A DNA stretch of 46,598 nt, from positions 1-46,598 of the IMG/VR virus record IMGVR_UViG_3300009285_002677; one strand, given 5' to 3'. This DNA comes from a virus. The notes below the pieces were generated by a model that was given only the letters and a program-made list of their open reading frames with translations, did not search any database and had not been told where the DNA came from. A program made the position numbers and the translations under genes. This document shows, in pieces, positions 23,535 through 46,189 of the stretch (the stretch's first letter is position 1; each line of letters starts with the position of its first letter).

Positions 23535-26012
23535 ATGAAGAAGCTGCTCATCCTCGGGGTGCTCCTGGGCGGCTCTTTCGCCCTCGCGGCACCGTGGCTG
23601 CTCTACGACACGACCGCGAGCGCGACCGACCAGAACATCCGCATGGCCTCCGGGGCAAACGCCGCGGGGGAGTACGGGGTGGTGGTCGGGAGCAATGCCG
23701 ACGCGGCGGCGGACACCCCGCTGTTCGCTGTCTGCGAGAAGTGCGACGACAGCACGCCGACCTACGTCTGGACCATCGATTCTGACGGCGACTGGACGTT
23801 GGATAGCTCGGCGCCGCTCTTGACGACCACCAGCTCGGCCGCAGGGCTGAACTTGGGAGTCGCGTCCGGGGCGAATGCGTCGGGCGAGTATGGGGTGTCG
23901 CTGGGAACCACGGCTGCTGCGGCCGCAGGGCTGGAGCTTGTCGGGTTCGGCGTGGATCTCGACGGAACCCCGATCTACGCGGCGCAGCTCGAAACCATCG
24001 CGGCGGGCGGAACCGGGTTCCGGCTCTATTCGACAGCGACCGCCGCCGGGCAGAATGCCTCAATGACCTCCGGCGCAAATGCTGCCGGAGAGTATGGAGC
24101 GGTTGTCGGTACCGACGCGGCGGTGACCGATGGGACCCAGGTGTTTGCTGCGTGCTCTGATTGCGACGGCACCCCGACGTATCAATTCACGGTGAGCTCT
24201 GATGGCAATTTGCTGCTGGATGCCACGGCGCCAATTGTGTCCACTGCGAGTTCGGTTGCCGGGCTGAACTTCGCTCTCGCTTCTGGGGCCAACGCTTCAG
24301 GCGAGTATGGCGTGAGCATGGGCACCAACGTCGCAGGGGCGGCGGGACTCGAACTCGTTGGCTGGGGCTCGGATCTTGATGGGACCCCGGTGTACGCCGG
24401 GCAGGTGGAGACCATCGCGGCCGACGGCACCGGATTCCGCCTGTATTCGGCGGCGACGGCCACCGGACAGAACGCGTCGATGACCTCCGGAGCGAATGCT
24501 GCTGGCGAGTACGGTGCAGTGGTGGGCACGGACGCCGCCGTTTCCGACACCACCCAGGCGTTCGCGGTCTGCACCGATTGCGACGATGCGACCCCCGACT
24601 ACAGGTTCACCGTTCTGGCGAGCGGTGCGCTGACCATCACGGGCGACGCAACCGCCGACGCAGGACTCGCCGGCGGGTTCGACTTCATCGTTGCGGCTGG
24701 CGCTAGCGCGGCGGCCGGGAGCAGCTTCGATGTGACCGGCGGCGCCGGCGGGGCTGCCGCGGTTGACTCGGACGGGCAGGCTGGCGGGGCAGCTAGCATG
24801 ACCGGTGGCGCCGGTACCGAACTGAACGGACTGGGAGCGAATGACGGGTCCGGCGGCGACGTGGTTCTTCTCGGCGGCGCCCGCGGCGGGGCCACCGGTA
24901 CGGCAGTCCAGGGCATCGTTCGCGTCGGGTCCCCAACCGTTGGATCTACCAAGACCACCAACCTCCTCGCGGTGGCCGGCGGCATGGAGGTTGATGGAGA
25001 TGCCAGGTTCGACGGCGCGATGACCTTGGGAGATACGACCGCAGACCTCCTGACGTTCACCGGACTGCTGGCAACAGACCTTACGTGGGATACGGGACTC
25101 GCGGGCGGGGTCGATCTGCTGGTTACGGCTGCTGCGGCAGATACGGCCGGCGGAACCTTTGACGTGACCGGACAGGCGGGCGGCGCTGCGGGGGCGGGCC
25201 AAGTCGGACGCGCTGGCGGCGCGGTGACACTCACCGGCGGAGCTGGATCGGCCAAGGACGGCGCCGGGGCCAACGACGGAGACGGTGGAGACCTGGTTCT
25301 CCTCGGAGGTGCTCGCGGCGGCGCGACTGGTGGAGGCGAGGTCCACGGTATCGTTCGGGTTGGATCGCCCACCGTTGGAAGCACCAAGGCGACCAACGTC
25401 TTGGCCGTCGGCGGGGCGTTCGAGGTGGACGGCGCCGCGCAATTCGATGGTACGGTTGCATTCAACTCGACCACCACGTTCCAGGTGGGCGACATCATCG
25501 CAGCCGACATCCTGGATCTCACCAGGTCCATTCCGCTGCCGCTGGGCGCGTGGAATAACTGCACTACCCCGGCTGCCATGGACTGGTCGGCTGGCGCCGA
25601 CGACGACCCTGACTTTGCCCTGGTGAACTCCGCGCAGGCCATTGAGTGGGACGACACCGGCGGACAGGTGGATATTGACGAGATCTGCGTCTCGTTCACC
25701 GTCCCGGCGGATTATGTGTCCGGCGGATCCCTCCTGTTCAGGATTACCAAGGACGCCGATACCGGCCCGGGCACTGTCCAGGAGGCCATCACGTGTCGGC
25801 TCTCTGTGGACGGTGCTGCGATTGGTGCGCCGACCGAGGTGAACGCGGCGCATGCCATCGCCGTGCAGACGGTCACCGTGACGCCGGCCGGGACGTGGGC
25901 TGCCGGGGCAAGCATCAGCGCGCTTTGCGCGGTGGACCAGGATGGCGCTGGGCCGCGAGACGACATCGTTTACATGCACTCGGTCGAGGCGCGGTACACC
26001 GCTACGCAGTAG
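23535..26012 (+). CDS. Large repetitive fibre-like protein with Sec signal peptide
   Basis: Encodes 825 residues from the ATG at 23535 (AAAGGAGCCGATC upstream). The start MKKLLILGVLLGGSFALAAP is a textbook signal peptide with an ALA cleavage site. GANAxGEYG occurs five times (about residues 37, 110, 177, 249, 317) at spacings of about 67-73, showing a doubled unit of about 140. Two Gly-rich blocks follow (GGARGGATG with VRVGSPTVGSTK in each) with GGAGG and GGAVTLTGG text like polyglycine-type helices in phage adhesins. The C-terminal 150 residues resemble a jelly-roll or lectin domain. CxxC pairs recur (CEKC, CSDC, CTDC). A related gene is at 43137. Role: decoration or receptor binding; the signal peptide is unexplained. 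Confidence 0.72.
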   Translation: MKKLLILGVLLGGSFALAAPWLLYDTTASATDQNIRMASGANAAGEYGVVVGSNADAAADTPLFAVCEKCDDSTPTYVWTIDSDGDWTLDSSAPLLTTTSSAAGLNLGVASGANASGEYGVSLGTTAAAAAGLELVGFGVDLDGTPIYAAQLETIAAGGTGFRLYSTATAAGQNASMTSGANAAGEYGAVVGTDAAVTDGTQVFAACSDCDGTPTYQFTVSSDGNLLLDATAPIVSTASSVAGLNFALASGANASGEYGVSMGTNVAGAAGLELVGWGSDLDGTPVYAGQVETIAADGTGFRLYSAATATGQNASMTSGANAAGEYGAVVGTDAAVSDTTQAFAVCTDCDDATPDYRFTVLASGALTITGDATADAGLAGGFDFIVAAGASAAAGSSFDVTGGAGGAAAVDSDGQAGGAASMTGGAGTELNGLGANDGSGGDVVLLGGARGGATGTAVQGIVRVGSPTVGSTKTTNLLAVAGGMEVDGDARFDGAMTLGDTTADLLTFTGLLATDLTWDTGLAGGVDLLVTAAAADTAGGTFDVTGQAGGAAGAGQVGRAGGAVTLTGGAGSAKDGAGANDGDGGDLVLLGGARGGATGGGEVHGIVRVGSPTVGSTKATNVLAVGGAFEVDGAAQFDGTVAFNSTTTFQVGDIIAADILDLTRSIPLPLGAWNNCTTPAAMDWSAGADDDPDFALVNSAQAIEWDDTGGQVDIDEICVSFTVPADYVSGGSLLFRITKDADTGPGTVQEAITCRLSVDGAAIGAPTEVNAAHAIAVQTVTVTPAGTWAAGASISALCAVDQDGAGPRDDIVYMHSVEARYTATQ

Positions 26013-30493: not shown

Positions 30494-32746
30494 TTGCCTG
30501 GATCAATCGTCAGCGATCAGACAGTCATCGACGCAGCGGAGGCTACGACGAACTGGGCGACGGTCGGGACGTGGGGGGGGGCCCCGGCCGCGTCGGCTGA
30601 TATCTTTTTGGAGCAGGCAAATGCTATCAACGCCCGCGCATCAGCAGCTAACGGGCCCGTCGAGCGCTATGCGGGGTCGCTCGTCGCGACCGCATCAAAC
30701 CTGGATCTGACGGTCAGCAACAGGCATCTCTATTTCTGGGTGAAGTGCTTCTCTCTCCCCTCGATGAACACCCGCGCAAAGGGTGGAATCGGCATTTCCA
30801 TCTCCTCCGACACGTCACCCACGAGATCGCCGGCGACGGGTGGCGAGCCGTGGGTGGGGCCGACAAACTCGAAGAACTGGTTCATGACCGGGAAGGATTT
30901 CGAGCCTGAGTCCGGGTGGGTCTGTTACGTCGTGAACCCGAATGGCACGCCCGACTTCACCCTCGGCAGCCCGGTCATGAGCACCACGAACCGCGCCGGC
31001 ATCCGCAGTGATGCGCTGCTGGTGGTCGGCGGCGGCTCGGTCAAGCCGCTCCCGACAATGTGGGACCGCATCGCCTACGGGTCGATGCTCACAATCAATG
31101 AAGGGACGGGAGGTGCCCCGGTAACGTTCGAGGATATCTATGCGGCCGACTCAGCGAACGCAAATCAGTATGGCATCCTCCGGAAAACGGTCGGCATCTA
31201 TCTCCTCGCGGGTAAACTCACCTTCGGTACGACCGGCCAGACGGCGGTCACGGTCTTCGCGGACACCAGCCAGGTCATCGTCTGTCAGGATTTTCCTGTG
31301 GCGGCTGGGCTCTATGAGTTGGTGCTGAATGGCGCCGGGAGTTTTGCCACTACCGTGACCCTGGGCAGCATTTCGGGCACGCTGACGAGCAAGGGCTGCA
31401 CGATTCGCGGTAGCGGACTGAACGAGCGGCGACTTATTGCGCCAGTCATCGTGTCCGGTGGGACGGGCTACACAGCGAACGACATCCTGACGGTCTCGGG
31501 GGGCACGTCAAGCATCGTCGCCAAGTTCAAGGTCATCACCGTGTCGAGCGGGGTCATCACCGAGATTCGCATGGAACAGGCCGGCGCTTACTCGGCGCCG
31601 GTGACTGGCACACTGGCCGTCACCGGTGGAACTGGAGCGGACGCGACATTCACCGCGACAGTCGCTGGTGGGTCGATCTGGACGCTGACCGCAAGCGCCG
31701 CGAATCAGACGCTCAATCTGTACGCATGCACGATCTCCGAAATGCTCTCGGCGGCACTCGCGTCCACCACCACTATGGACGGCTGCATCGTCCAGAACTG
31801 CGGCGAGATCACTGCCAGCGGCGCGACGATCAAGAACTGCACGTTTTTCGACCTGCGAACTACGACGCCGATCAGCGCGACCTATCAGATCCGAGTTACC
31901 ACAAGCACGCCCACCCTGACGAAAAACAAGTACGTCAACTGCGCAACGGCCGTCCTCTGGGATCGCGCTGCCGACCCGAACGGCAAGATCGATGGCAGCG
32001 AGTTCATTTTTGGCGGCGCCGGCCACGCGATCGAGTTCGGCACGAACACGCCGGGCGATCCGACCGAAATCAGCCTGACAGACGTGAAATTCACTAACTA
32101 CGGTGCTGACGACACTACCAACGCGGCGATCTACAACAACAGCGGTAAGCACCTCATCATCAACATCCTCGGCACCGGCAATTCCCCGACAGTGCGCAAC
32201 GCCGGCGGGTCGTCCACGACGATCGTGGCGAACACGGTTACAACCGAGGTCACGGTCAAGGCGCTCGACACGGGGGCGCTGATTACCGGAGCGCGCGTCC
32301 TGGTGATCGCATCAGACAACACCGGCCCGATGCCGTTCGAGGAGACGGTTACGGAGATTACCAGGGTGGACACGACGGCGACGGTAGCCCACACCGCGCA
32401 CGGGCTTGTGGACGGCAAGAAGGTCATGATCAAGGGCGCTAACCAGCAAGCGTATAACGGCGTCTTCGTGATCACCTACATCAATGCCAACTCCTACAGC
32501 TACGCGGTGAGCGGGAGCCCGGCCACCCCGGCGACAGGCACCATCAAAGCGACTGGCGTTGTTATCGACGGCACGACAGCGGCAGGGGTGATCAGCGACG
32601 TGCGCACGCATGCCTCTAACCAGCCGATCAAGGGCGCTGTGCGGAAAATGACGGAGTCTCCATTCTATAAGAATGGTTCGATCGTTGGCGTAATTGACAG
32701 CGCGGACGGCCTTTCAGTCACGGTACAACTGGTGCGCGATGAGTGA
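30494..32746 (+). CDS. Tail fibre or spike with right-handed beta-helix character
   Basis: Encodes 750 residues from a TTG behind GGGGGAGTGA. Many short repeats with N/T/G turns (TASAANQTLNLYACTISEML, TASGATIKNCTFFDLR, LTDVKFTNYGADDTTNAAIY) fit a beta helix in the middle. The N-terminal part (FYFWVKCF-type text, GTGGAPVTFEDIYAADSANA) and the C-terminal TVAHTAHGLVDGKKVMIKGA are separate beta domains. It probably recognises the host surface. Start codon choice is uncertain because the ribosome site is very close. Confidence 0.65.
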   Translation: MPGSIVSDQTVIDAAEATTNWATVGTWGGAPAASADIFLEQANAINARASAANGPVERYAGSLVATASNLDLTVSNRHLYFWVKCFSLPSMNTRAKGGIGISISSDTSPTRSPATGGEPWVGPTNSKNWFMTGKDFEPESGWVCYVVNPNGTPDFTLGSPVMSTTNRAGIRSDALLVVGGGSVKPLPTMWDRIAYGSMLTINEGTGGAPVTFEDIYAADSANANQYGILRKTVGIYLLAGKLTFGTTGQTAVTVFADTSQVIVCQDFPVAAGLYELVLNGAGSFATTVTLGSISGTLTSKGCTIRGSGLNERRLIAPVIVSGGTGYTANDILTVSGGTSSIVAKFKVITVSSGVITEIRMEQAGAYSAPVTGTLAVTGGTGADATFTATVAGGSIWTLTASAANQTLNLYACTISEMLSAALASTTTMDGCIVQNCGEITASGATIKNCTFFDLRTTTPISATYQIRVTTSTPTLTKNKYVNCATAVLWDRAADPNGKIDGSEFIFGGAGHAIEFGTNTPGDPTEISLTDVKFTNYGADDTTNAAIYNNSGKHLIINILGTGNSPTVRNAGGSSTTIVANTVTTEVTVKALDTGALITGARVLVIASDNTGPMPFEETVTEITRVDTTATVAHTAHGLVDGKKVMIKGANQQAYNGVFVITYINANSYSYAVSGSPATPATGTIKATGVVIDGTTAAGVISDVRTHASNQPIKGAVRKMTESPFYKNGSIVGVIDSADGLSVTVQLVRDE

Positions 32747-42129: not shown

Positions 42130-43140
42130 ATGAAGCAGATCGCGATCGTAGCGGCATTCCTGGTGACGAGTTCGGCGGTAGTCGCGCAGGACATGCCAAA
42201 GGCCAAGTCGGCCAACCTCACCGGGGCAGGGGCCGCCGGCTGCGTTGAGTCTACATTGCCCCGCGGGTGCATGCTCATTCCGAGCAACGGCATGGGGTCG
42301 GTCCTCGTGCGCCTGTCTGGCACATGGGCAGGCACGGTGGTCGCCGAGGGGTCGGTTGACGGAGCCACCGACCCGTGGATTGCGCTGGACATCACCAAAC
42401 TGGCCACGGGGGCGTGGACGTTGGTGGCGAATACGACCGCTAACGCGAACTTCCTAGTACCCGCCGGCGGATTCAAGGCGATCCGCATCCGGGCTAGCCT
42501 GTACACGAGCGGAACCGTCGTGGTGGATGCGTGGGCGTCGCCCGTTCCGTTCGAGCCCATCTACTCCCGGGACGCCTCTGGCAATATGGTAGTCAGCGGC
42601 ACGGTCACGGTCTCCGAGCCGGTGAGCGTCGAGGGCAACGCGGCGGACGGCGCGGCCGTGTCCGGGACCCCTGTGCGCGTTGGCGGTAAGGACGGCGCCG
42701 GGCTCACCCAGGACATCCTCACGGACACGGGCGGGGCCGTTCAGGTGGACGTGGAGAGCATCGCAGGAGGAACCAATAACGTCGGCGACGTGGACGTTGA
42801 CAGCTTCCCGGCGGCAGCCATTGTGAACGCCGAGCAGGCGGCCAAGACCTCAGACGTAACGCTGATCGCGGCGGCTGCCAATACCCGGCTGGTATTCGCC
42901 CAGTGCGCCGAGACCGCAGCGGTGGCTGCGGCCGCGACCGTCATCCTGCGCCACGGCGAGGAGGCGGCCGGAAGCTGCTCCGGCAACTACGTCGCACGGA
43001 TCGAACTGGCGCCGAACGAAACCGGAGACCCGCTCAAGTGGGACGCCCGTGGGCTCGCGGTGGCGTCCGGCGTGTGCATGGACATCACAGCGGGTACCGT
43101 GGACTGCTGGTCTGCCTCGGTGGTGGAGACTGCCCCGTGA
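42130..43140 (+). CDS. Fibre-like protein with Sec signal peptide
   Basis: Encodes 336 residues from ATG behind TTGGAGGACAGC. MKQIAIVAAFLVTSSAVVAQ is a classical signal peptide with VVA cleavage. The rest is beta-rich: LTGAGAAGCVESTLPRGCML, VDGATDPWIALDITKLATGA, FKAIRIRASLYTSGTVVVDA, then a C-terminal domain with six cysteines in total (such as AQCAE, GSCSGN, SGVCMD, VDCWS). An exported, disulfide-linked protein is the simplest reading. It is translationally coupled to the next gene, also with a signal peptide. Confidence 0.68.
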   Translation: MKQIAIVAAFLVTSSAVVAQDMPKAKSANLTGAGAAGCVESTLPRGCMLIPSNGMGSVLVRLSGTWAGTVVAEGSVDGATDPWIALDITKLATGAWTLVANTTANANFLVPAGGFKAIRIRASLYTSGTVVVDAWASPVPFEPIYSRDASGNMVVSGTVTVSEPVSVEGNAADGAAVSGTPVRVGGKDGAGLTQDILTDTGGAVQVDVESIAGGTNNVGDVDVDSFPAAAIVNAEQAAKTSDVTLIAAAANTRLVFAQCAETAAVAAAATVILRHGEEAAGSCSGNYVARIELAPNETGDPLKWDARGLAVASGVCMDITAGTVDCWSASVVETAP

Positions 43141-45530
43141 GGACCCGGACCAAGGCCCTCCTGGTTGTGCTCCTGCTCTCGGCGGCGGCGCTGGGCAGCT
43201 CGGGCCCGAGGTTCGTGGACCTCTGGACCACGCAAACGGTCGCCGGGGCGAAGACGTGGAGCAACGACGCCACGTTCAGCGGCGACATCATCCTCAACGG
43301 CAGCAACATTTACAACACATCGAGTGCGTCGGGGCTGAACATGTCTGCGGCCAGCGACGCCAACGCAGGGGGCGAGTACGGTTTTGTCGGGGGCACAAAC
43401 GCGATTCTCGATGGCGCTGGGGCAGTGGACCTCACCGTGACTTACATCGGCGCGTTCGGAGAAGACCTGGATGGCACGCCGTCCTACCCCTGGAGATTCA
43501 GCGCGGGCGGACAGCTTTCCGTTGTGCCGCTTGCGTTGCCATCACAGGGCGCGGCCGACGGTCTGTGTCCGGGTGTTACCGCATGGAATACTCAAGCCGG
43601 CGGCGCAACGACGCGAACCGACGCGGCGGGCGTTGCCTGCCTTGGCGCTGACATGAACTTCGATCTCGGCGCCGGTGGCGCGTCGAGTGGCGTGAACGCT
43701 GCGCAGAACACGGGTGGGAAGGGGGGCAGTTGGACGGCGACCGGAGGCGTCGGCGGAGAGGCCACCAACGGCACGCCAAACGTCGGCGGCGCTGGTGGGG
43801 ATACGACCCTCCGCGCAGGCGACGGCGCAGCCACCAACGGCGCTGGGGGGGCGATCATCCTGGACATGGGTTCGGGGTCGGGCGCTGGCGCGAACGGCTC
43901 ACTCTCGGTCCGGCTGGCCAATAGCGAAGTGGCGCGCGTGGAGTCGGACGGTGACTTGCAGTGCGACGGCGACGCGACGATCGACGGCGGCGACCTCTCG
44001 CTGGGCACGGGTACGGCGCAAACGATCAAGTGCAACAACGTGGCGGACTGCACGCTCGCGTTTTCGAACGATACGGCCGCGATGAACGCCACCATCGACG
44101 GCACGTTCACAGCAACAGGCACCCTTACAGGCTCGAACGTGAGCGGCACGAACACCGGCGATGCGTCCTGCACCGCCGCAAATGGCCTCTCGTGCCCCAG
44201 CCAGGTGTTTGCTATGGCAGCCGCCAGCGTTTCCGCTGACGGGGCCGTTGTGACCGGTGCGCAATCATTTCAATCGAACTCGTCAAACGCAAAAACGCTC
44301 TCGGGCAATGGTAGCCCAACCGTGCTCTGGATGAACACCGACAATTCGGGACAAGGATTCGGCGCCATCGGGGCCGCCGGAACGCCAGCAGCGTTCGCGC
44401 TGGCGAACTTCTCTACGACAGAAGCCGCGATGTACTGCCTCGACGGTGCGGGGCAGTCTTGTCACCGCGCTGGACACGGCAAGCGCGACGATATCTACGC
44501 CTACCACGGGGTCCGAGTCTTGGGCGGCATGGTCGGCGTTCAACCGGCCTATGCAAACGGTGGAGAGGGCGCGGACCCATCCTTGACCGTGGTAGCGCCC
44601 GCGACGGGGCTCGCGCAGCAATGGCAGGACGCGGCATCTACCTCCATCGCGGAGATGTCGAGCGCGGGCGCCCTTCAGATTGACGGCGCGCTCACGGCGA
44701 CGGGCACGATCGCGGGGAGCAATGTTTCCTCGACGTTCACTGGTTCGGCGAGCGGCTCCGCGAGCGGCGCGAACACAGGTGACGTGACCATCGCCACCGC
44801 AACCAGCGTGTTCGGCCAAACTAGTATCAGCGGTCAAGCACTCTCGACCTACAGCGCCATCCCGGGACCTCTCTCTGCGCGATCGTTTTACGCCTGGCAG
44901 GGCTCGACCACCGCTACCGGGTTGGCCTATTCGTCTCAGATCACCGGCGGGTCGGTCACAGAAACCGGCACGGCCAGCGCACTGACCAACGTCGGCACCC
45001 GGGGCTATTCGCAGCGGGCGTCCGCGGCGTCGAACAACGCGCTAGCCGGTGTCGAGTCGGCCACCATGATCCATACATACACAAACTGGCGCCCGCGCAT
45101 TTCTGCGCTAGTGAGGACCGACACCGCCATCACGACCCGCCGAACGTGGATTGGCGTGGAGGAGAGCACGATCAGCCTTCTGGCCATCCGTACCGCCGCG
45201 TCCGGACCAGCGGCGAGCGCCGTAGACTTCGCGGCCATCGGTTTCGACACGGCAGTTGATCCAAACTGGATGCTCTGCACGGGCGACGGCACGAACTACT
45301 CATGCTCGGATACCGGCGTCGCCGTCGCGGTTAGCACGGAGTACTCGATCGTGGTCGACTGGCGCACGTCAGCGACAACAGTTACAGGCTGGGTGAACGG
45401 AACCAGCGTGGCGAAAACGTCAAACGTGAGCACCGACTCGGTCGCGCTCGGATTTATCATCTTGACGACAACGCTCGATGCAACCTCCCGAAACTCGCAG
45501 ATATCAGGGTTCATGCTGGAGCAGAACTGA
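43137..45530 (+). CDS. Large fibre-like protein with signal peptide and lectin-like end
   Basis: Encodes 797 residues from GTG (GTGA overlap). RTRTKALLVVLLLSAAALGS is a signal peptide. One GEYG-type unit (SAASDANAGGEYGFVGGTNA) is homologous to the repeats of the 23535 gene; Gly-rich blocks follow (TGGKGGSWTATGGVGGEATN). SGTNTGD and SGANTGD repeats appear twice, a common tail-fibre text. The last 220 residues look like a concanavalin-type lectin domain (WRPRISALVRTDTAITTRRT; SIVVDWRTSATTVTGWVNGT). Many paired Cys. Its role is probably binding a surface; export by Sec would be unusual. Confidence 0.7.
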   Translation: MRTRTKALLVVLLLSAAALGSSGPRFVDLWTTQTVAGAKTWSNDATFSGDIILNGSNIYNTSSASGLNMSAASDANAGGEYGFVGGTNAILDGAGAVDLTVTYIGAFGEDLDGTPSYPWRFSAGGQLSVVPLALPSQGAADGLCPGVTAWNTQAGGATTRTDAAGVACLGADMNFDLGAGGASSGVNAAQNTGGKGGSWTATGGVGGEATNGTPNVGGAGGDTTLRAGDGAATNGAGGAIILDMGSGSGAGANGSLSVRLANSEVARVESDGDLQCDGDATIDGGDLSLGTGTAQTIKCNNVADCTLAFSNDTAAMNATIDGTFTATGTLTGSNVSGTNTGDASCTAANGLSCPSQVFAMAAASVSADGAVVTGAQSFQSNSSNAKTLSGNGSPTVLWMNTDNSGQGFGAIGAAGTPAAFALANFSTTEAAMYCLDGAGQSCHRAGHGKRDDIYAYHGVRVLGGMVGVQPAYANGGEGADPSLTVVAPATGLAQQWQDAASTSIAEMSSAGALQIDGALTATGTIAGSNVSSTFTGSASGSASGANTGDVTIATATSVFGQTSISGQALSTYSAIPGPLSARSFYAWQGSTTATGLAYSSQITGGSVTETGTASALTNVGTRGYSQRASAASNNALAGVESATMIHTYTNWRPRISALVRTDTAITTRRTWIGVEESTISLLAIRTAASGPAASAVDFAAIGFDTAVDPNWMLCTGDGTNYSCSDTGVAVAVSTEYSIVVDWRTSATTVTGWVNGTSVAKTSNVSTDSVALGFIILTTTLDATSRNSQISGFMLEQN

Positions 45531-45787: not shown

Positions 45788-46189
45788 GTGGCCGTCCTTC
45801 GCTACATCTGGGCCGCGCCCCTCTCTATCCTGGGCCTTCTCGTGGCCTATGTCGGTGGCGCGCGCTATACGACCAAGAAGGGCGCGTTGCTGTTCGTCGC
45901 CCGGACTGGCTGGCCGCTGGCATGGTTCTTCCGGACGTTCGGCGTACTGGCGTTTACCTGGGGCTGGGTGGTCGTGTTCCGGGACCACAAGGCGCTGGGG
46001 AATGGCCGGACGCTGCGCCACGAGATGGAGCACGTAAGGCAGGCGTGCGCGTGGGGACCCCTCTTCCCGGCGGCCTACATCTTGGCGGGCGCCTGGGCGG
46101 CGGGGCCCGGCGGGAGCGGCTCGGGGATCTGGAGAAGCAGCAGCGCCAGCACGGTGCACCTCACACGCTGTAGTCGAGCACGCGGCTGA
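45788..46189 (+). CDS. Membrane protein with HEXXH metalloprotease-like motif
   Basis: Encodes 133 residues from a GTG next to the previous TAG. Two hydrophobic segments (APLSILGLLVAYVGG and LAWFFRTFGVLAFTWGWVVV) precede HEMEHVRQ at residues 78-85, which is a His-Glu-x-x-His zinc motif followed by a helix. The segment WGPLFPAAYILAG would be a third hydrophobic helix. The last 30 residues (GSGSGIWRSSSAST) look out of frame, while another frame over 46090-46173 reads ARRERLGDLEKQQRQHGAPH, so a one-base indel is likely. A membrane protease with unknown target is the best reading. Confidence 0.55.
   Translation: MAVLRYIWAAPLSILGLLVAYVGGARYTTKKGALLFVARTGWPLAWFFRTFGVLAFTWGWVVVFRDHKALGNGRTLRHEMEHVRQACAWGPLFPAAYILAGAWAAGPGGSGSGIWRSSSASTVHLTRCSRARG

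Follow-up and report, generated by a model that had tools for sequence, protein, structure and literature searches.

Predicted signal peptides on three fibre-like late proteins of a podovirus-like phage: candidate adhesins with a periplasmic stage

The window analysed here, that is, the whole stretch of 46,598 nucleotides, is a 46.6-kb virus record with a GC content of 64.8% and no end repeats, in which a tRNA search found none. Its late block is podovirus-like (Table 1), with the gene order of T7, where the gene 17 tail fibre follows the internal virion proteins; window genes without a family match were given function names from position alone. Three genes, P1, P2 and P3, stand at fibre positions in this late structural block, P1 and P2 being placed 3' of the internal-virion-like genes, as is T7 gene 17, and P3 between the major capsid protein (MCP) and the adaptor. 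The repeats of the spike-like protein at 30494 read like those of a right-handed beta-helix spike, which makes it the window's receptor-binding candidate lacking a signal peptide (SP). No relatives of the portal and MCP were found among viral contigs, nor any of the MCP, the portal, the nozzle-like protein and structural protein 27904 in the phage collection, and the window phage is very divergent.

Table 1. Late-block features of the window, with positions as first base or range
Feature	Position	Strand	Remarks
Terminase	17391		PHROG terminase match, 2e-32
Portal-like gene	19417		
Scaffold-like gene	21253		
SU10-type major capsid protein (MCP)	22261		PF17236, 3.5e-7; phrog_14242, 7e-10
P3	23535..26012	+	825 aa; immediately 3' of the major capsid gene, ahead of the adaptor-like gene
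P3 predicted Sec SP	23535..23588	+	Residues 1-18, MKKLLILGVLLGGSFALA, cut before AP
P3 GEYG units, n=5	23607..24644	+	Spacing 68-72 aa; P2 carries one unit (~70 aa)
Adaptor-like gene	26654		
Structural gene	27904		
Spike-like gene	30494-32746	+	750 aa, 9 Cys, without SP
Nozzle-like gene	33577		phrog_511
Internal-virion-like genes, n=3	36691, 37777, 39588		
P1	42130..43140	+	336 aa; SP, GTWxGT/VDG-type N-domain, DGAAVSGTPV motif segment, Cys-bearing C-terminus
P1 predicted Sec SP	42130..42186	+	MKQIAIVAAFLVTSSAVVA, cut before QD, after VVA (residue 19); equivalent place in homologue L035
P1 motif segment	42592..42792	+	Residues ~155-221; common to fibre-like proteins of 14 viral contigs
P2	43137..45530	+	797 aa, fibre-like
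P2 predicted Sec SP	43137..43196	+	Residues 1-20, VRTRTKALLVVLLLSAAALG, cut before SS
P2 GEYG unit	43299..43517	+	Residues 55-127; 43% identity to P3 (blastp 4e-9)
P2 C-terminal domain	44877..45527	+	Residues 581-797; homology with C-terminus of MW202657 tail fibre
Membrane protein	45788-46189	+	133 aa, HEMEH motif; directly 3' of the fibre genes; possibly a small membrane metalloprotease

P1 and P2 are coupled, as the initial annotation had it: P1 starts with ATG directly 3' of the ribosome-binding site (SD) GGAGG, and the GTG start of P2 (SD GGAG) shares four bases, GTGA, with the TGA stop of P1. Its description of both as cysteine-rich proteins with signal peptides likewise stands, the SPs being of the Sec type and the cysteines numbering 6 and 11; P3 (SD AAGGAG) has 10. 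None of the three carries a lipobox (Cys at +1 of the mature protein), the first Cys lying at residues 38, 144 and 67 of P1, P2 and P3, respectively.

The SPs were called with a purpose-written scorer, not SignalP, which looks for a basic n-region, an uncharged hydrophobic core and small residues at -3/-1, and which 0.7% of shuffled N-termini pass. By this scorer, P1-P3 have tripartite SPs with the -3/-1 cleavage residues; their scores were matched in 5, 0 and 0 of 3000 own-composition shuffles, and they are the only SP-like proteins among 47 script-called window genes. The earlier view that three such genes exceed chance is supported. We reject an artefact of start choice, since SPs recur on homologues, the match of P1 to one of them (L035) includes the SP, and the SD sites fit. 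For P2 an alternative downstream start is possible (V27, 'MDLWTTQTV'), but its SD spacing is only ~3 bases, and P1 and P3 have no such start.

P2 and P3 share a GEYG unit, while P1 lacks it and matches neither, so that the initial annotation, which gave homology to the 23535 protein for one of the two only, is exact; the homology is through this single domain. In P3, units 1, 3 and 5 carry CxxC and units 2 and 4 are Cys-free and of DLDGTP type, an alternation that looks as if a two-unit block got duplicated. The repeat was not found in other phages or hosts: there are no GEYG relatives in 50,697 phage records and no protein matches to P3 in viral contigs, a DNA-motif search of the viral contigs gave three matches in short frames that look non-coding, and the repeat alignment found no match in 85k genomes. 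None of P1-P3 has a Pfam or PHROG match above noise, a lysis domain, or a relative in the 50,697 phage records. Sequence search of solved structures gave nothing useful, and AlphaFold2 models made without alignment (pLDDT 30 and 37) were set aside.

Links to fibre domains come from P1 and P2, and P3 is tied to a known fibre domain via P2 only. Over their full length, the C-terminal 217 residues of P2 can be aligned to the C-terminus of MW202657.1 (Smith-Waterman z 11.1, 0/1000 shuffles; tblastn alone, E 3), an SP-less siphophage protein with a tail-fibre annotation. The TQTVAGAKTWSNDATF motif of P2 resembles one in three phage tail fibres (TQTVxGxKTFSNDA), and since those also lack SPs, it supports the fibre identity of P2 and not its export. 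Two further matches to the P2 C-terminus (L015, L016) were dismissed as located in an unrelated 106-aa gene. P1, in turn, is homologous only to fibre-like structural proteins, with no significant match between its C-terminal domain and six relatives.

Relatives carrying the P1 motif were gathered by a degenerate DNA pattern over viral contigs, of which 14 matched. In eight of the 14 the motif lies within an SP-bearing protein (L024, L026, L028, L029, L030, L031, L033 and L035), in five the protein has no SP (L022, L023, L025, L032 and L034), and in one it is cut (L027). The best blastp matches to P1 among called proteins all bear an SP (L024/G006, 8e-23; L033, 3e-19; L029, 5e-17; L028, 1e-12; L035, 1e-12), and SP-less matches begin at 2e-11; the SP of L024 (MRRILALWLLELLLLPTLALA, cut before Q), overlooked by the scorer owing to a Glu in the core, was assigned by eye. 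The match of P1 to L035 starts from residue 1 of both proteins (31% over 141 aa, E 4.6e-10), which places the SP within the conserved unit. Across the P1 relatives, SP sequences differ and the physical pattern is kept. The possibility raised at the outset, that homologues might be plain cytoplasmic fibres, is therefore partly true, at the level of domains (L004, G008, G015 and the MW202657 tail fibre have no SP), but the closest relatives of P1 all carry one.

SP cassettes were found in nine other records, as tandem fibre-like genes with few-base overlaps or short gaps. Record G001 contains five successive SP-bearing genes with overlapping ends (L036, 16576-21089), the last of which is apiosidase-like (PF13204). 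In G002, which has TerL and shares the MCP, portal and nozzle PHROG families with the window, one SP gene follows the nozzle and three occupy the interval from MCP to adaptor, where P3 sits in the window. Its portal leads to a complete deposited podovirus, MW202554.1 (ctLwi270; 27% identity over 83%), whose SP-bearing proteins comprise a PF07484 Collar protein (1.7e-23), a pectate-lyase/GH28-type spike, a LamG lectin (8e-14) with the domain beginning just behind the SP, a 195-aa protein and an 846-aa P1-like fibre. For the GH28-type spike (L043, 24079-25638), the SP is left out by the start as deposited, and a start further upstream (25677) is preceded by a good SD. We found no clear SP-less fibre or spike candidate in the late block of MW202554.1. 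The cassettes of MW202554.1 and G002 resemble the window in their SP-bearing fibre-like late-block genes, MCP family phrog_14242 and P1-type domains, but lack the GEYG unit; the window, for its part, has none of the Collar, LamG and GH28-type members of MW202554.1. The system was initially put forward as undescribed, and this applies to the class so far as the literature found goes, but other uncultivated phages also carry such genes.

The same scorer found no SP on fibres or spikes in the late blocks of five cultured podoviruses (T7, BPP-1, SU10, epsilon15 and phiKMV). The genes that it did retain there are all of lysis type: Rz-type spanins, phiKMV lysozyme gene 45 with a gene overlapping its end, and a gene with a putative-holin annotation. 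A role of P1-P3 as spanin, SAR endolysin or holin was ruled out by their size (336-825 aa) and the absence of a lysis domain in Pfam/PHROGs. Two other phages also have no SP fibres: Cellulosimicrobium phage DS1 and MW202795, which has the MCP family of the window and whose host is probably actinobacterial and monoderm, because of its whiB genes. These two cases are compatible with a need for a periplasm.

A second kind of evidence, not tied to the SP scoring method, comes from cysteines. In a comparison of proteins with fibre-like composition from 15 records, Cys content is 1.18% in the SP-bearing (n=31) versus 0.56% in the SP-less ones (n=48; p 1.2e-6), the records having been chosen through the P1 motif, the proteins being mutually related and four SP calls made by eye. 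Cysteine numbers are even in 23/29 SP-bearing proteins (p 0.0012), and C-x2/3-C motifs are ten-fold denser (1.18 versus 0.12 per 1000 aa). In homologous loops a Cys pair is gained where an SP is present: SP-less L004 has LRVNVIAGGGGGGTQYAEDT and LKVNIKAGAGSGGT, SP-bearing L029 has LQVECSAGCGGGTQYAEDT and LQVECTSGCGGSGGT, and MW202554 has LQVECVSGCAGSGGT. The contrast is absent inside G001 and inside MW202554, where the SP-less group included the spike whose SP the scorer missed. The enrichment in paired cysteines over SP-less kin is thus a property of the class; in the window the numbers are even for P1 and P3 and odd for P2. Such a signature is the expected trace of real passage into an oxidising compartment, and supports actual export.

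Taking together the SPs, start sites, cysteine pattern, homology and gene positions, export, cleavage and disulfide formation appear very probable for P1-P3, with the odd Cys number of P2 speaking against disulfide-paired export. With less support than for export, we infer a diderm host, retention until lysis and docking on the virion. The reading that we tentatively favour is that P1-P3 are late-gene adhesins of a podovirus-like phage, exported by Sec, folded in the periplasm and joining the virion at lysis. We favour it because of the fibre positions, the Collar fibre in the class, and the fact that MW202554 and G002 offer hardly any receptor-binding candidates other than the SP-bearing proteins. 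The host Sec pathway would take the three proteins across, with removal of their SPs; in the periplasm of the assumed diderm host they would fold and form disulfide bonds, and they would stay there, having no outer-membrane export signal. Lysis would then free them together with the virions, and docking on particles could follow, perhaps on the head for P3, judging from its gene position, and on the tail for P1 and P2. Production and assembly in the cytoplasm without an SP, as for an ordinary tailed-phage fibre, is not what the predicted SPs of P1-P3 point to, and the three proteins would work like such a fibre rather than being one. The analysis suggests that some phages send attachment proteins across the host inner membrane before the cell bursts. 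It is possible, if rather doubtful, that an uncultivated tailed-phage group passes its receptor-binding fibres and spikes through Sec and the disulfide machinery of the host; some virion parts would then mature in the periplasm and join the particle at lysis.

The main rival holds that the exported proteins fold in the periplasm, stay off the virion and, at lysis, serve in free form as lectins, glycan enzymes or soluble receptor-binding decoys. Around the burst cell they would cover or remove receptors and polysaccharide and thereby free the progeny. The LamG lectin, with its domain right after the SP, the GH28-type spike and the apiosidase-like protein of G001 have the look of independent secreted proteins, the mature N-termini have no docking domain in common, and a spike candidate lacking an SP is present in the window (30494); all of this speaks against docking on the virion. 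We nevertheless consider a free existence unlikely, in view of the Collar fibre, the homology to a tail-fibre C-terminus, the location of the genes, whether between MCP and adaptor or behind the nozzle, and the lack of another clear receptor-binding candidate in MW202554 and G002.

Since the usual site of tailed-phage fibre assembly is the cytoplasm, and related domains exist without SP, the hydrophobic N-termini might instead stay uncleaved and serve as anchors or assembly segments in virion proteins folded in the cytoplasm. This seems improbable to us: the full n-h-c pattern with its -3/-1 residues is present across many unrelated sequences, and the gain of cysteines tracks the SP.

A role on the surface of, or secreted by, the living infected cell, in superinfection block or adhesion, as the initial annotation proposed, is improbable: masking of receptors from the outside would agree with the SPs and the fibre-type binding domains, but there is neither a lipobox nor a recognised outer-membrane export domain, Sec reaches only the periplasm in a diderm, the genes occupy fibre positions in the late structural block whereas exclusion genes are usually early or prophage-expressed, and the P1 motif, with no confirmed relative in 85k bacterial and archaeal genomes, gives no sign of prophage use. 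Since the recognisable spike and fibre genes of MW202554 and G002 bear SPs, at least some of these proteins are more likely phage receptor-binding proteins.

One study read the absence of SPs from phage DGR target proteins as support for their phage origin (PMC6199706). SPs serve in this way as an argument against phage membership of fibre-like proteins, and here they are predicted on spikes and a Collar-domain fibre within otherwise ordinary phage structural blocks, together with a cysteine signature that fits. If the proteins are virion-borne, tailed-phage assembly extends beyond the cytoplasm and receptor-binding proteins in environmental data escape notice, one cause being starts annotated downstream of the SP; if they remain off the virion, phages carry a common late secretome of lectins and glycan enzymes.

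An open-access literature search gave no account of SPs on tailed-phage fibres, an absence that is no proof, and we know of no cultured tailed phage with SP-exported attachment proteins, nor of two-compartment assembly in tailed phages. T5 Llp and TP-J34 Ltp, two exclusion lipoproteins, are phage proteins exported by an SP, and so is lambda Lom (PMC12309495). P1-P3 share this with them, but Llp and Ltp are small lipoproteins and Lom is an outer-membrane barrel, whereas P1-P3 are large, fibre-like and have no lipobox. The filamentous phage M13 makes its virion proteins pIII and pVIII with SPs and inserts them in the membrane before assembly. P1-P3 would resemble them as putative virion proteins made with a predicted SP, but pIII and pVIII are not homologous to them and assemble at the inner membrane without lysis, whereas the window phage is tailed and terminase-bearing. 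Closest in kind are podovirus fibres and spikes (T7 gp17, BPP-1 Mtd, epsilon15 tailspike) and PF07484 Collar fibres, with which P1-P3 have in common the late position, the low-charge, beta-rich composition and tail-fibre motifs, the C-terminal domain of P2 being that of an annotated tail fibre. The fibres and spikes of cultured podoviruses have no SP, and P1-P3 differ from them by their SPs and paired cysteines; known parts, fibre domains and Sec export, are thus brought together in what seems to be a new combination.
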